Below the pieces are notes generated by a model. That model was not told the DNA's origin. It made no database searches and worked only from the letters and a program-made list of their open reading frames with translations. DNA of 64,000 nucleotides from a virus. The position numbers and the translations under genes were made by a program. The stretch covers positions 62,001 to 126,000 of the IMG/VR virus record IMGVR_UViG_3300028377_000003; one strand, 5' to 3'. This document shows, piece after piece, positions 5,110-10,646 of this stretch. Within the stretch, counting starts at the first letter, position 1; each line of letters opens with the position of its first letter.

Positions 5110-7485
5110 ATGGCACGTAAAATTTCAGGCATCGCAGTCCGGCAAGGGCACACCGCATTGACGCGGGGCTTGCTCCGGGACAGCAAAGTCAACGTGGTAT
5201 CGGCGGGTAGCGACTTCTACAACGCCAATGACTTTCCCATCCTTCCCTTCATGTTCAAGTTTTGTGAGCGTGTGAGGCGGGGGAAAAAAGAAACGGGTCA
5301 GCGGCCCGATTCCTTTTCCACTTGGGATATCAAGCAAGTCTGGTTGTCCGCTCGTAGTGAACTGCGGGGCGACAACAAAATTGTCATCGCGTCCACCCCG
5401 GACGAGGTGTCCCAAGAATACATCCGCACGTTGGACGGCGGGATTCTTCACGAATCTTTCCACAGCCTCTACACGCACAAGGGGCGTAACCTCGACTACC
5501 AACGGTTGGCGAAATTCATCGGCAACCACTACGACCCCGAGGTTCCCTACGAAAAGAAAGCCAAGCTGCTCAAGACCCTCTGGAACATCTTCGAAGATTC
5601 GATGATTGAACGGCGGGGCATGGAGCGGTTCGAAGGCGCTATCTATTCGATCCAAATGGTACACCAACTGGTCTGGGATCGTGAAACACCGGGGCGACGT
5701 GGGCCGGTCGGGGGCACTTTCTATGACGAAAACAATCGCAGGTGCAAAGCCTTCACGATGCTGGACCACGTGGTCTACTACCTGCGGGACCAAGTTGAAA
5801 ACTACCTCGACGACGCTCCCCTCGACGAATACGACCCGCAAGCGCGGATGATTGTTGATGTGTTGCTTGGCGATCTCGTCGAAGAAGGTCGTCAGTCAAA
5901 AGACACCTACGAATGCTTCGAGTTGGCTTTCCAAGCGCTGAATCGTCTGTCCAAGCTCAAGGGCGCTGCCAACGGGAAAGGCGACGGTGACGGCGACCCC
6001 CAAGAGCAAGAAAAACAGGGCGATGAACAGCAAGAAGGCGGGGGCGGCGGCAACGGTGAAAAAAGCCAACAGGATGATGAGCAGTCCGGTGATGGTGAAA
6101 GCCAGAGCGGGGACGGCCAGAGTGACTCCGAAGAAGGCGAAGGCGAAGACGACGGTGAAAGTGAAGGCGGGGATTCCGAAGGCGGAGATTCCGAAGGCGA
6201 AAGCGGGGACGACGGTTCTGACGCCGATGGTGACAGCGGAAATAGCTCTGAGGACGGCTCAGAGGGACAGAGCGGCGATTCAAGCGACCAAGGTGGACAG
6301 CAAGGTACATCCGGTAACGAAAACCATTCTAAGGCCGGTCAGGACAGCCGGGACGGTGAAAAGGGTGGCGGCGAAGGCGGGCACCAAGAAGGCCACCGTG
6401 ATGGTGACGCGCTCCCCCCGGATTTTGACCGCTTGGCAGATGAAATCGCCAACACTGACGAGGCGAATGGCGGGCAAGATTTGTCGGACGTCATTAAAGA
6501 CCAGTGGGAAGAGGAAACACAAGCCTCGGGCGTGCCGAGTCATCCGATTCCCATGACCCGTGAATACGATATCATCCATGAGGTAACACAGTCGAAAGGC
6601 AACCTCAAAAAGTTCAGAAAGTTTGCGGGTGATGTGCGCCGGGATACGCTGTATATCCGACCCAAAATGGTCGCTTTCCTACGGGGTATGAAAAAGTCCC
6701 GTCGCAAGCACCGGCTTGAGCAGGGCCAGCGATTGTCTGGCCGTAGCATCCATGAAATCGTGTACAAGAAAAAGCCCAAGCCGTTCATGAAGCGTATCAA
6801 GGCCGAGAAAGAGCACGCGGCGGTGTCCATCGTTATCGACGAATCGGGTTCGATGAATCTCGATGAAGCGCGGTACATCCTGACCACGTTCGCCGTGTCC
6901 CTGCAGCAGCTTCGGATCCCGTTTGAAGTTATCGGGTTCCAGCAGGGGACGATTCAAGGTTGCGACAACGCCCATAACGTCCAGCAAAGATATTTCCGGG
7001 AACGGGGGATCTCCGGGGATGCCTACGAAAAGTCCAAGAGGACTGAAGAATGGAAAGCACGGTTCACGCGGATTGCGGCACGCAGGTTCAATGTGTTTCG
7101 CACCTTCGACGAGCCGCTTACGGACAAGTCCCTGAGCAAGCTAATGAACACGAGGGCCAACGGTGGTACGCCCTTAGCCGATGGGATGGATTTCGCGGCC
7201 CGGAGGCTAGCCCAGCGCAAAGAGTCCCGTAAGGTGCTTATCGTGATTACTGACGGCAAGCCTTCGGGGTCCAGCGGAACCCGGTTCGGTACAAACGCAA
7301 TGGTTCAGATTTGCAACAACGAAACCAAGCTGTTGGCTTCGATGGGTATCCAAACCTTGTTCGTAGGCTACGGTGAGCGCAGCATCAATAAGTTCGATAA
7401 CAGCGTGTACATCCCGAACCTCGATTCATTCGGTACGGTGATGAACGAGCACCTGTTCAAGATGCTTCGGGAAAATAGGTTTTGA
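5110..7485 (+). CDS. CobT-like VWA-domain protein with HExxH motif
   Basis: 791-aa partner of the AAA+ ATPase just upstream. The C-terminal third is a von Willebrand A domain with a metal-binding MIDAS motif (D577, S579, S581 in DESGSMNL) and the second strand motif NGGTPLADGM. The middle (about 285-450) is an extremely acidic, Gly/Ser/Glu/Asp-rich linker, as in CobT-type proteins. Residues 114-118 read HESFH, an HExxH zinc-protease-like motif within ILHESFHSLY, so the N-terminal domain may be a metallopeptidase-like fold. In known systems the MoxR-type ATPase loads metal or remodels a client through the VWA subunit. The client here is not evident. Confidence 0.85.
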   Translation: MARKISGIAVRQGHTALTRGLLRDSKVNVVSAGSDFYNANDFPILPFMFKFCERVRRGKKETGQRPDSFSTWDIKQVWLSARSELRGDNKIVIASTPDEVSQEYIRTLDGGILHESFHSLYTHKGRNLDYQRLAKFIGNHYDPEVPYEKKAKLLKTLWNIFEDSMIERRGMERFEGAIYSIQMVHQLVWDRETPGRRGPVGGTFYDENNRRCKAFTMLDHVVYYLRDQVENYLDDAPLDEYDPQARMIVDVLLGDLVEEGRQSKDTYECFELAFQALNRLSKLKGAANGKGDGDGDPQEQEKQGDEQQEGGGGGNGEKSQQDDEQSGDGESQSGDGQSDSEEGEGEDDGESEGGDSEGGDSEGESGDDGSDADGDSGNSSEDGSEGQSGDSSDQGGQQGTSGNENHSKAGQDSRDGEKGGGEGGHQEGHRDGDALPPDFDRLADEIANTDEANGGQDLSDVIKDQWEEETQASGVPSHPIPMTREYDIIHEVTQSKGNLKKFRKFAGDVRRDTLYIRPKMVAFLRGMKKSRRKHRLEQGQRLSGRSIHEIVYKKKPKPFMKRIKAEKEHAAVSIVIDESGSMNLDEARYILTTFAVSLQQLRIPFEVIGFQQGTIQGCDNAHNVQQRYFRERGISGDAYEKSKRTEEWKARFTRIAARRFNVFRTFDEPLTDKSLSKLMNTRANGGTPLADGMDFAARRLAQRKESRKVLIVITDGKPSGSSGTRFGTNAMVQICNNETKLLASMGIQTLFVGYGERSINKFDNSVYIPNLDSFGTVMNEHLFKMLRENRF

Positions 7486-7554: not shown

Positions 7555-8304
7555 ATGAAAATGATTAACGGCAAACTTTACTTCAAGACGCCAGACATTC
7601 GGGCTTTCCTCGGGATTACCGATGGTCAAATATGGGCCGCCCGTGAGCGGAATGCCCTCAATCCGATCCAGTTTTCGGACGGTGGCGACTGTTACTTCAA
7701 ACCCGAAGAGATTTTGGAAGGCAAGCGCCAGCTTGTTGAAACGGGACGTCTCGGGTCCAGCAAGCTCCGACGAAAGCCGGTCATCGAGGACAAGCAAGAG
7801 TACGCCCGTATCGTGCGGTATCTGGAACGAAGCGGCTATGCCGTGGGCGACGTCAGCCAGCTTGAGGCACGTGAAGATGGAAAGGGTTACAAGGTCGTCT
7901 ACGACCCGACCGCCGTTCCGGTTGATGATTCCGCCACGGCCACAAGCACCGAAAATGTGTCCACCGATACGTCCGAAAGTAGCGGCGGCGATATGGCATG
8001 GAAAAATCGGCCCACCCCGGACGTCTTGCCCTTCAATTTCGCGATGGGGTCTGACGAAGTGCCCGAAGGGCCAGAGGCCAAGCACGATTTCAAGAACGTC
8101 CAGAGTTGTTTCGGGTACGCCGACGAGACGAACACTGAGTGCAGTGAAAACTGCGCCTTTTTCGAAGCGTGCGCCAAGTCCCGGTTCCGCATCATGTCCA
8201 CCGTAGCCAATGGATTGGACAAGGGCAAAGATGCGGGCACCATCCGCGAAGAAGAAGCGGCGGTGCGCAAATCCGAAATCGAACGGGTTGCCGCACTTAT
8301 CTGA
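7555..8304 (+). CDS. Unknown protein with DNA-binding-like N-terminus and four-cysteine cluster
   Basis: 249 aa. Residues 8-60 (FKTPDIRAFLGITDGQI, then YFKPEEILEGKRQL) look like a MerR/excisionase-type winged helix. A Ser/Thr-rich linker lies near 125-150. A cysteine cluster C185, C196, C200, C206 (spacing 10, 3, 5, with CAFFEAC) could bind zinc or an iron-sulfur cluster. The Shine-Dalgarno AAGGAGAC fixes the start. It has its own strong promoter and sits with the AAA/VWA pair. Function unknown; a small DNA-binding regulator is a guess. Confidence 0.65.
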   Translation: MKMINGKLYFKTPDIRAFLGITDGQIWAARERNALNPIQFSDGGDCYFKPEEILEGKRQLVETGRLGSSKLRRKPVIEDKQEYARIVRYLERSGYAVGDVSQLEAREDGKGYKVVYDPTAVPVDDSATATSTENVSTDTSESSGGDMAWKNRPTPDVLPFNFAMGSDEVPEGPEAKHDFKNVQSCFGYADETNTECSENCAFFEACAKSRFRIMSTVANGLDKGKDAGTIREEEAAVRKSEIERVAALI

Positions 8305-8413: not shown

Positions 8414-8857
8414 ATGGCACAAGCCGCCCAAAAGCAAGACAACGCCCAGCCCACCTTCAACGAAATGCTCGAAGAGGGCATCGAACTCTACCGCGACCTG
8501 CGGGAAAAGAAAAGCCGCCTGAGCGAAATCAAAGACATGCTCCGCCAGCACGCTGAGGCCAAGCGCAACGGCGTCAAGACGGTGGAACTCACCACCGAGG
8601 ACGGCGAGCACACCGTGTCCGTCACGTTCCCGGACCCCAGCCTCAAGGTGAAGTCCGACAACGACGAGATGGCTTCCATCCGCGAAGATCTCGGCGAACT
8701 CCTGTTCGCGATGTTCTTCAAAGAGAAAACCTCGTACAGCGTCGAATCCGACTTCGAGGACAACATCGTCAAGGTCAAGGATCCCCTCCAGCGTCAAGAA
8801 CTGGAAAGCGCGGTCGAGAAGAAAGCAGCCACCCCGCGTGTCAGCTTCCCGAAGTAA
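8414..8857 (+). CDS. Unknown 147-aa coiled-coil protein
   Basis: Residues 12-55 form a charged coiled coil (ELYRDLREKKSRLSEI). A beta-rich stretch follows (about 60-80, TVELTTEDGEHTVSV), then a helical tail ending KKAATPRVSFPK. I do not recognise it. The codon use appears strongly biased to GC-ending codons, more than in its neighbours, which with its own promoter suggests high expression. An 8-bp hairpin (8846-8868) spans its stop codon. Confidence 0.7.
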   Translation: MAQAAQKQDNAQPTFNEMLEEGIELYRDLREKKSRLSEIKDMLRQHAEAKRNGVKTVELTTEDGEHTVSVTFPDPSLKVKSDNDEMASIREDLGELLFAMFFKEKTSYSVESDFEDNIVKVKDPLQRQELESAVEKKAATPRVSFPK

Positions 8858-8874
8858 ACTTTCGGGAAAACCGG

Positions 8875-8895
8875 CCCCGGTCCAGCCGGGGTCTT
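8875..8895 (+). terminator. Candidate terminator hairpin
   Basis: CCCCGG (8875-8880) pairs with CCGGGG (8886-8891) across the loop TCCAG, and a weak TCTTC tract follows. A second hairpin, TTCCCGAA/TTCGGGAA (8846-8868), lies just upstream over the stop codon. Together they probably end the unit from promoter 4. Confidence 0.6.
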
Positions 8896-8923
8896 CATCG
8901 TCGCACTCCTTGTCGTCGCAAGG

Positions 8924-8961
8924 GCAAAGCCCCCGGTGGTTAATTCCATTGGGGGCTTTGC
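8924..8961 (+). terminator. Long 16-bp hairpin, terminator-like
   Basis: GCAAAGCCCCCGGTGG (8924-8939) pairs with 8946-8961 (16 bp including two G-T pairs) around the loop TTAATT. The same loop flanked by GG/CC occurs in the terminator at 60268. A-rich and T-rich steps inside the stem could let it work in both directions. It marks the left border of the non-coding region. Confidence 0.7.
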
Positions 8962-9131
8962 ATTACCCCCAACATCCCTCTGACAATTCCCCACAAGATA
9001 GCACAGCCCTTTAGATGTGTTTGCCTACCCCACTAGTCACCTTCGCTGGACAAATAGCTTAGGGGCCGTCTCAAAGCGCACACATATCACTTAGCCAAGC
9101 GGAGTCTGGAGGCGTTACGTAGTAATTGACC

Positions 9132-9160
9132 TTGACGCCTTCGAGTTCTTGCGGAATCAT
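9132..9160 (+). promoter_or_regulatory. Candidate promoter for the structured RNA
   Basis: TTGACG (9132-9137), 17-bp spacer, AATCAT (9155-9160). The -35 matches the phage consensus but the -10 matches only 4 of 6 bases. The predicted start lies about 7 bases downstream, at the first base of the hairpin at 9167. Confidence 0.4.
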
Positions 9161-9397
9161 ATTGGTGATCTGCGTGTTGGCAGATCGGACGGGTTAACAA
9201 CCGTCGCCGGTGCTTGACTCATAGCAACCTCGCTGTGGGCCGAAGATGGAAAGCCGGTCGGGGTACTCCGCACTCCCCCATCAACAAAGAGTGTCGATGT
9301 AAAGGATCGAGAACCATTGCCCTGTCAAAAGGGTTACTAGCTCGATGACTCCGATAGCCGCCACTTGCTTTCGTGCCTATCAAGGCATGTAGCTGAC

Positions 9398-9426
9398 GGA
9401 TTCCCCAATGACTTCCTGAGTCGGGG
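9398..9426 (+). repeat. 29-bp direct repeat, copy 1
   Basis: Begins GGATTCCCCAATGACTTC and ends CTGAGTCGGGG. It folds as CCCC/GGGG, a 3-base bulge, GACT/AGTC and loop TCCTG. Here the stem extends outward as ATTCCCC with GGGGGAT, and GATTCC also pairs with GGAATC at 9441-9446. The second copy lies 180 bp downstream. Confidence 0.9.
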
Positions 9427-9577
9427 GATGAAGGCTGGTAGGAATCGTTTCCCTATGGATCCTTAGTCGGATGTCGGGAACACGCCCATCGGGGCGGTCA
9501 AGCACCGGGTAGTTTACCGGTCAAGAGGTTTGACCACCCGTGATACCTATCTTGGCAAGTAACAATTGGAACCTCAT

Positions 9578-9606
9578 GGATTCCCCAATGACTTCCTGAG
9601 TCGGGG
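9578..9606 (+). repeat. 29-bp direct repeat, copy 2
   Basis: Identical to 9398-9426 over 29 bases. The flanks differ, but the stem still extends (TTCCCC with GGGGAA), replacing the T-G pair of copy 1 by T-A. This small compensating difference favours a conserved RNA or DNA hairpin. Confidence 0.9.
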
Positions 9607-9742
9607 AACGACGGGCTCTACAGTTGGTAGCTATTTGGTAACGGAGGCAAGAGGTCTTGGAATGATAAGCAGTCAGGTAGTTTAGTGAGTAATGTCCTAC
9701 CAACATACGTAATAAGTACTCAGAGTTATAGTACTCTAGGTT

Positions 9743-9915
9743 GTTCTTATTACTCTACTCTCTCTTCTTCCTCTCTTACTTTCCTTGATCAGTCTTCACC
9801 TTTACCTAATAAGAACCTAAGCAATAGCCATATAAGAAACAGTAAAAGAAACAGAAGTAAAAGAAACAGAAGTAAAAGTAAGAGCAGCAGCAGTAGAAAC
9901 AGCAACAGCAATACA
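9743..9915. repeat. Pyrimidine tract, purine tract and 15-bp tandem repeat
   Basis: About 9743-9786 is C/T-rich on the plus strand and about 9834-9915 is A/G-rich. The unit AAAAGAAACAGAAGT occurs twice in tandem (9844-9858, 9859-9873), with a partial copy before it. CTCTTACTTT (9773-9782) is complementary to AAAGTAAGAG (9875-9884). Such asymmetry is seen at some replication origins but is not diagnostic. Confidence 0.7.
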
Positions 9916-10318
9916 ACCGGCAACAGGTGTAGCAGCGTAAGCACCCACGCACGTGTATGTGTCCCCTACGGGGATAGACTACCGATTTTTGGAAGTGTAT
10001 GAGATAGCCACAGTGACCTTGTGAAGTATCCGATAACTGAGTGCCTTGGTGGGCACGGGGGATAGCCACCTGAAGCCTCTTGGAGCGCTTGATAGCCTCT
10101 GAGAATACTTTTGGATCCGGGCTTTTAAGGGGTAAAATACTATTGGGGACAGTAAAACCAGAGTATTTACCCTTGATGAGGATCTAATAGACTTGGCGAG
10201 GGTTGGTGAGTGAATTTCCGAACGGAATAGAAACCGTTTTTGTGGTGCTATTTTTAACGATCGTAGCTACCGGATGGAGATCTCTAACTTTTTTCGACCG
10301 GTCCAAGTGTGATCTGGG

Positions 10319-10355
10319 TATAATAAGTGAGATTACTTGAGGGGCGGTCCCTCAA
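10319..10355 (+). promoter_or_regulatory. -10 box and leader hairpin before the KH-protein gene
   Basis: A perfect TATAAT at 10319-10324 preceded by GG, as in the other phage promoters. A good -35 at the usual distance is missing; TTCGAC lies 20 bp upstream. TTGAGGG (10337-10343) pairs with CCCTCAA (10349-10355), so the leader would begin with a stable hairpin that could stabilise or regulate the transcript. Confidence 0.6.
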
Positions 10356-10385
10356 ATTGGTAGCAAAACGAATACGGAGATTCAC

Positions 10386-10646
10386 ATGATTTACACGTTT
10401 GAAGAAGGCCCTAGCATCGACGAGTTGCTTGAAAACTACATCAAGGCGCTTGTCGCTTCCCCCGATGAAGTAGAGATCGAAAAGACTGAAAGCTCTACGA
10501 CCCTCATTTATACCATTGACGTCGTACATGATGATCGCGGCAAGATTATCGGGCGTGGTGGTTCCATCATCAACAGCCTCAAGACCATTTTTCGTGCGCT
10601 TGGTTGCAAGCATGGTAAGAAGGTCCTCCTAGAAATCAGGGAGTAA
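10386..10646 (+). CDS. khpA: KhpA-like KH-domain RNA-binding protein
   Basis: 86 aa, nearly the whole length being one type II KH fold like bacterial KhpA (YlqC). The RNA-gripping GxxG loop is GRGG at residues 56-59, in KIIGRGGSIINSLKTIF, and is followed by a helix and the final strand KKVLLEI. The N-terminal helix (about 11-25, IDELLENYIKALV) and the D-E-V-E step also match KhpA. Bacterial KhpA, often with KhpB, binds many small RNAs and mRNAs. I see no KhpB partner in the window. The gene follows a 1.4-kb structured non-coding region and starts a short operon with the next two genes. Confidence 0.8.
   Translation: MIYTFEEGPSIDELLENYIKALVASPDEVEIEKTESSTTLIYTIDVVHDDRGKIIGRGGSIINSLKTIFRALGCKHGKKVLLEIRE

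Follow-up and report, generated by a model that had tools for sequence, protein, structure and literature searches.

RNA-primed origins, such as the R-loop origins of T4 and the RNA II origin of ColE1, combine an unwinding element with a transcript. In bacterial origins, the basal unwinding system consists of a DnaA-box, a spacer and DnaA-trios, with a published rule that places the DnaA box 0-16 bp from the trios (PMC8287927, PMC6669920), and once the strand is open each DnaA subunit binds three bases of these trios (PMC8287927). Gene-free stretches of phages may also be occupied by large structured RNAs such as GOLLD and ROOL (PMC12286853), and A-R-N triplets are the pattern recognised by the distal face of Hfq (PMC8294330).

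The window analysed here (64,000 nt; positions 62001-126000 in a virus record of 129,690 bp, labelled G000) contains a gene-free gap that probably serves a jumbo-phage lineage as its replication origin, with a candidate unwinding element and a DnaA-trio-like array. As in the basal unwinding system, a single strand carries trinucleotide repeats with a fixed adenine, placed at a replichore switch and in the DNA of lowest stability. In contrast to that system, for which three NAN trinucleotides in a row are the minimum, the window has 26, its array shows neither a nearby DnaA box nor a T preference at the first base of the trio, and the phage that carries it has no DnaA match. A non-exhaustive search of the literature on jumbo phages found no origin of this kind. 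For a lineage known from metagenomes alone, the proposal supplies an origin of ~1.5 kb that is precise enough to test, and the triplet element points to an initiator that reads DNA three bases at a time.

The locus was compared with two relatives: G009 (IMGVR_UViG_3300021978_000001, 437,490 bp; locus piece L022), reached by a head protease search and taken to be circular or complete because its contig ends overlap by 149 nt, and G010 (IMGVR_UViG_3300028377_000008, an 80.7-kb contig; locus piece L025), reached with a KhpA profile. A near-identical contig, IMGVR_UViG_3300011189_000001 (99.99% over 12 kb), confirms the G000 sequence. Genes were called with our own simple codon-usage caller, and the gap and its surroundings comprise the following features, in window positions:

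5110-7485, + strand: CobT-like VWA protein, synteny anchor (PF11775 and PF00092; 30-40% identical in relatives)
7555-8304, + strand: conserved upstream gene, 249 aa, no assigned function (44% identity over 68 aa to its L022 counterpart)
8414-8857, + strand: conserved upstream gene, 147 aa, no assigned function (34% identical to its L025 counterpart)
8858-10385, no strand assigned: gene-free gap, proposed replication origin region (largest gap, syntenic gaps, skew switch)
8924-8961, no strand assigned: strong inverted repeat, probable terminator of the upstream operon (16-nt arms, 88% complementary)
10319-10324, + strand: TATAAT, a putative khpA -10 box (absent from the promoter-scan matches)
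10386-10646, + strand: khpA-like gene, 86 aa, GRGG loop (PF13083, E 6.5e-18)

The original prediction of about 1.4 kb without a credible protein gene is borne out: 1528 nt separate the stop of the 147-aa gene (8857) from the start of khpA (10386), forming the largest gap of the record (the next measures 863 nt), and the best + strand ORF within it (9685-10002) has a codon-usage score of -33.4 as against +25.3 for khpA. The predicted linkage of gap and khpA likewise holds, the gap lying directly upstream of khpA in two diverged phages; protein genes at this place in relatives had been named beforehand as an observation that would speak against the prediction, and neither relative carries a credible one. 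The order AAA ATPase, VWA protein, one or two further genes, gap and khpA is common to G000, G009 and G010, and the gap is the largest of its record in the relatives as well (1595 nt in G009, 1283 nt in G010). Between relatives the gaps align at the triplet array only, and a direct DNA similarity search of phage records gave no match. Hairpins comparable to the probable terminator follow the upstream genes at ~5395-5432 of L025 and ~8149-8171 of the L022 reverse complement, as read by eye.

Downstream of the gap lie genes for clamp-loader subunits, a DNA ligase, RecD2, RecA, a sliding clamp and a 5'-3' exonuclease. On the upstream side, the AAA_5 ATPase gene (L025 304-1497; in the window, the gene preceding the VWA gene) and the CobT-like VWA gene (window 5110-7485) constitute a MoxR/CobS-CobT-like pair, which is retained next to the proposed origin in each of the three phages, the ATPase domain having been checked in L025 only. 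In G010 alone, a gene for a DUF7007 protein (L025 5449-6393, - strand), which carries the N-terminal 27-residue motif described below, separates the upstream operon from the gap.

The KhpA-like gene with a GRGG loop, also foreseen in the original prediction, is confirmed by the match to PF13083 at 10386-10646 (64.9 bits, cut-off 32.1), its product having the KH_KhpA-B domain and GXXG loop that define a KhpA; the KhpA profile further matches the KhpA of PDB 7xqc. The loops of the three phages read GRGG, GRKG and GRGG, and the KhpA proteins of the two relatives are 48% and 59% identical to that of G000. Bacterial KhpA (PF13083) is similar in domain, length and GXXG loop, whereas the window copy is phage-encoded, falls outside the PHROG families, none of which matches it, and finds just one other record by tblastn in INPHARED. 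No relatives emerged from bacterial genomes searched with the KhpA and VWA alignments. The TATAAT box announced upstream of the gene is present, but it stands 61 nt from the ATG and not 40. The steady linkage of khpA to the gap raises the question of whether RNA binding and phage replication are connected.

Central to the origin proposal is strand composition, for which third-codon-position GC skew was regressed on gene strand and side and compared with 300 within-strand permutations in G000 and G009, G010 being left out with its locus too near the contig end. The skew switch expected of a replication origin, with transcription strand controlled, is found in both genomes: the best break of G000 lies at 71-72 kb, with a gain of 13.4 lnL (gap at 70858-72385), and that of G009 at 284-285 kb, with a gain of 42.5 lnL (gap at 283336-284930), and these gains were reached by 0/300 permutations in either genome, the permutations ignoring correlation between neighbouring genes. 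Both breaks fall exactly between khpA and the gene preceding the gap; the G000 gene calls include one spurious short ORF that overlaps khpA on the other strand. In the complete 437-kb G009, the minimum of raw cumulative skew is also in the gap, at 284 kb and amid same-strand genes; it is not due to a change of gene strand, because most genes on both flanks share a strand and gene orientation changes chiefly ~10 kb further on, near 294 kb. The raw minimum of G000 is at 62 kb, 9-10 kb off the gap, and there only the strand-controlled test places the switch in it.

Two further elements lie within the gap:

9681-9881, no strand assigned: duplex-stability minimum of the record at 200 bp, a putative DNA unwinding element (nearest-neighbour stacking scan)
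9835-9912, + strand: 26 consecutive A-R-N triplets (equivalent to N-A-R, DnaA-trio-like), also in both relatives

The local minimum of duplex stability that marks a DNA unwinding element is present in G000 and G009 as the least stable 200 bp (71681-71881 and ~283870-284070, respectively), in both cases in the gap and adjoining or over the array, and in G010 at 60 and 100 bp, the least stable stretches of those lengths in the record again lying in the gap. The array itself is far longer than any A-R-N run obtained by shuffling the gap 2000 times (at most 7, versus 26 observed), and no other run of at least 8 occurs on either strand of the window. It stands on the khpA strand and in the equivalent place in all three phages, with 26/26 triplets fitting in the window, 23/30 in G009 (L022) and 39/48 in G010 (L025), and is the most A-R-N-rich 30-triplet stretch of each record (28/30, 25/30 and 25/30). 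The pattern alone is not diagnostic, because among the matches listed in other viral contigs most are simple repeats or lie within genes. Gap, array, instability minimum and skew switch coincide in the sequence analysis.

DnaA boxes occur at chance level in the three phages (5, 1 and 5 found, 4.2, 4.8 and 6.0 expected), and no box with at most two mismatches lies 0-16 bp from the trios, the nearest box-like match in the window being ~90 nt off. The DnaA C-terminal domain (PF08299) has no match in G000, G009 or G010. Because the DnaA-box rule does not hold and the search of the three phages found no DnaA, the array is called trio-like and not a member of the DnaA-trio system; host DnaA could be the initiator.

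From these features we infer origin activity, strand opening, the identity of the initiator and any part of KhpA or of an RNA primer. The low-stability stretch at ~9681-9881 would open, and the adjoining A-R-N array at 9835-9912 would then present one strand to an initiator ATPase of the AAA+ type, either host DnaA or a phage protein, which may bind the opened strand stepwise with three bases per subunit; helicase loading and two-way replication would then start. The flanking hairpins and the terminator may shield the site from upstream transcription and might aid loading or priming, and khpA would be the first gene right of the origin. A more elaborate version, in which a phage-encoded triplet-binding initiator on the long A-R-N array, a structured transcript and the neighbouring KH protein jointly open the origin, is quite unlikely; if it were true, an RNA-binding protein would take part in starting DNA replication.

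Folding within the gap, the starting point of the original prediction, concerns the following features:

9060-9700, + strand: moderately structured stretch with the originally predicted hairpins (z -2.06; windowed z-scores; sequence unconserved in relatives)
9207-9218, + strand: 5' arm of a perfect 12-bp long-range inverted repeat
9497-9508, + strand: 3' arm of the same inverted repeat
9398-9426, + strand: first copy of a repeated hairpin (29 nt, the same in both copies)
9578-9606, + strand: second copy of the repeated hairpin

The stable hairpins are indeed present on the + strand, as indicated by the 12-bp inverted repeat, the repeated hairpin and the share of 120-nt windows with z below -2 on the gap + strand (25%, versus 2-3% in two coding stretches). 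The structure is real but moderate, the z-score of 9060-9700 folded as a whole being based on only 20 shuffles; folding is stronger in the gap of G009 and near background in that of G010. A pattern search for the repeated hairpin returned only the near-identical contig, and the sequences found for the gap structure are either near-identical copies or relatives that cannot be aligned there. Like GOLLD and ROOL, the window has a large, structured, phage-borne stretch free of genes; unlike them, it has no tRNA gene in a tRNA scan of the window and no Rfam match to the gap at gathering or relaxed thresholds, so that the suggested GOLLD- or ROOL-type RNA finds no covariance-model support from either family or any other. 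The candidate promoter at 9132-9160 is no better than chance (2 promoter-like matches found, 1.5 expected).

That a long structured non-coding RNA (~9060-9700 or longer) acts with KhpA as a scaffold or sponge, as originally proposed, consequently appears quite improbable: it has no Rfam family and a chance-level promoter match, its folding is of moderate strength and, in the third relative, close to background, the relatives share no sequence similarity outside the array, and the skew switch and instability minimum would be left unexplained. In its favour are the excess of + strand folding over coding stretches, the stronger folds in G009, the persistence of gap and khpA together in three phages and the study of KhpA proteins as bacterial RNA-binding proteins (PMC12456014). 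A replication origin fits better than an RNA because the skew switch and the duplex-stability minimum lie in the same gap, and the locus illustrates how a striking gene-free region can pass for a giant RNA if skew and relatives are left unchecked. A transcript might still serve the origin: running through the hairpins and the purine-rich array, it could form an R-loop as in T4 and ColE1, perhaps aided by KhpA. All origin evidence applies to such RNA priming, which is a variant of the origin explanation and not an alternative to an origin. A purine-rich sense strand favours stable RNA-DNA hybrids, and the sense strand of the array is of this kind, with a structured stretch upstream. What the locus shares with the T4 and ColE1 origins is an unwinding element preceded by a stretch that may yield a structured transcript, whereas promoter matches in the window do not exceed chance, the transcript is hypothetical and the structure is unconserved in sequence, and priming of this type seems rather unlikely.

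Two other readings concern the array alone. Were it transcribed, it might soak up host Hfq via the distal face and upset host small-RNA control, a role for which it has the A-R-N repeats expected of an Hfq-binding RNA (PMC8294330), a pattern that by itself is no proof of binding. The array is unbroken in the window, folds poorly and is conserved in place and strand, and its 26 triplets would correspond to about four hexamers, six repeats filling the distal face of one; however, the arrays of the relatives are broken (23/30 and 39/48), the two phages tested have no Hfq family match, and skew and stability would again go unexplained, which leaves this sponge very improbable. A small protein gene, encoding a serine/arginine-rich or membrane peptide, could be sought in the open frames at window 9685-10002 (+), L022 reverse complement 8794-9234 (+) and L025 7101-7484 (-), but no reading frame of the array is both open and initiated across all three phages, and the codon scores are -33.4, -8.1 and a weak +6.0, respectively. 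In the A-R-N frame, moreover, 10/10 serine codons are AGY and 6/6 arginine codons AGA (shares in genes of this phage: 0.33 and 0.14), a choice with a likelihood of ~1e-10 for a gene of G000 (product of codon shares). Such a gene is extremely improbable and was rejected on frames, codon scores and codon choice; by sequence criteria, the array is non-coding.

Returning to the proposed origin, a further comparison is offered by the Tunturiibacter phage Tunturi_5 (PP885688), a cultured distant relative, in which a stretch with few genes likewise lies close to a strand-controlled skew break and to a khpA-like gene. It differs in having five ACGCAGAAGTGCACC-type repeats and no A-R-N array, whereas the window has no such iterons. 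A ParA gene lies near these repeats (~110650-110820), which precede the region annotated for the replication helicase and are likely an iteron origin (~110.7 kb); the KhpA-like gene (gp147, 106495-106767) is unannotated and lies ~4 kb from them. The 485-kb uncultured phage LR745208.1, also a distant relative, has a strand-controlled skew switch at 436 kb, with neither an A-R-N array nor khpA.

A separate observation concerns a motif of 27 residues (LKDQLIKLGxxxxxLRPHIRPVLAxL type), in most cases close to the N-terminus, which is shared by ~9 ORFs of G000, ~11 of G009 and ~6 of G010; a profile search found none in Tunturi_5 and only weak matches in LR745208. Its ORFs are located as follows:

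73506, 62982, 62248, 123023, 123563, 116911 and 115021 in G000 record coordinates, + strand: ORFs with the 27-residue motif
257, 991, 11527, 54995 and 61566 in the window: ORFs with the 27-residue motif

The motif is possibly a targeting or packaging tag.
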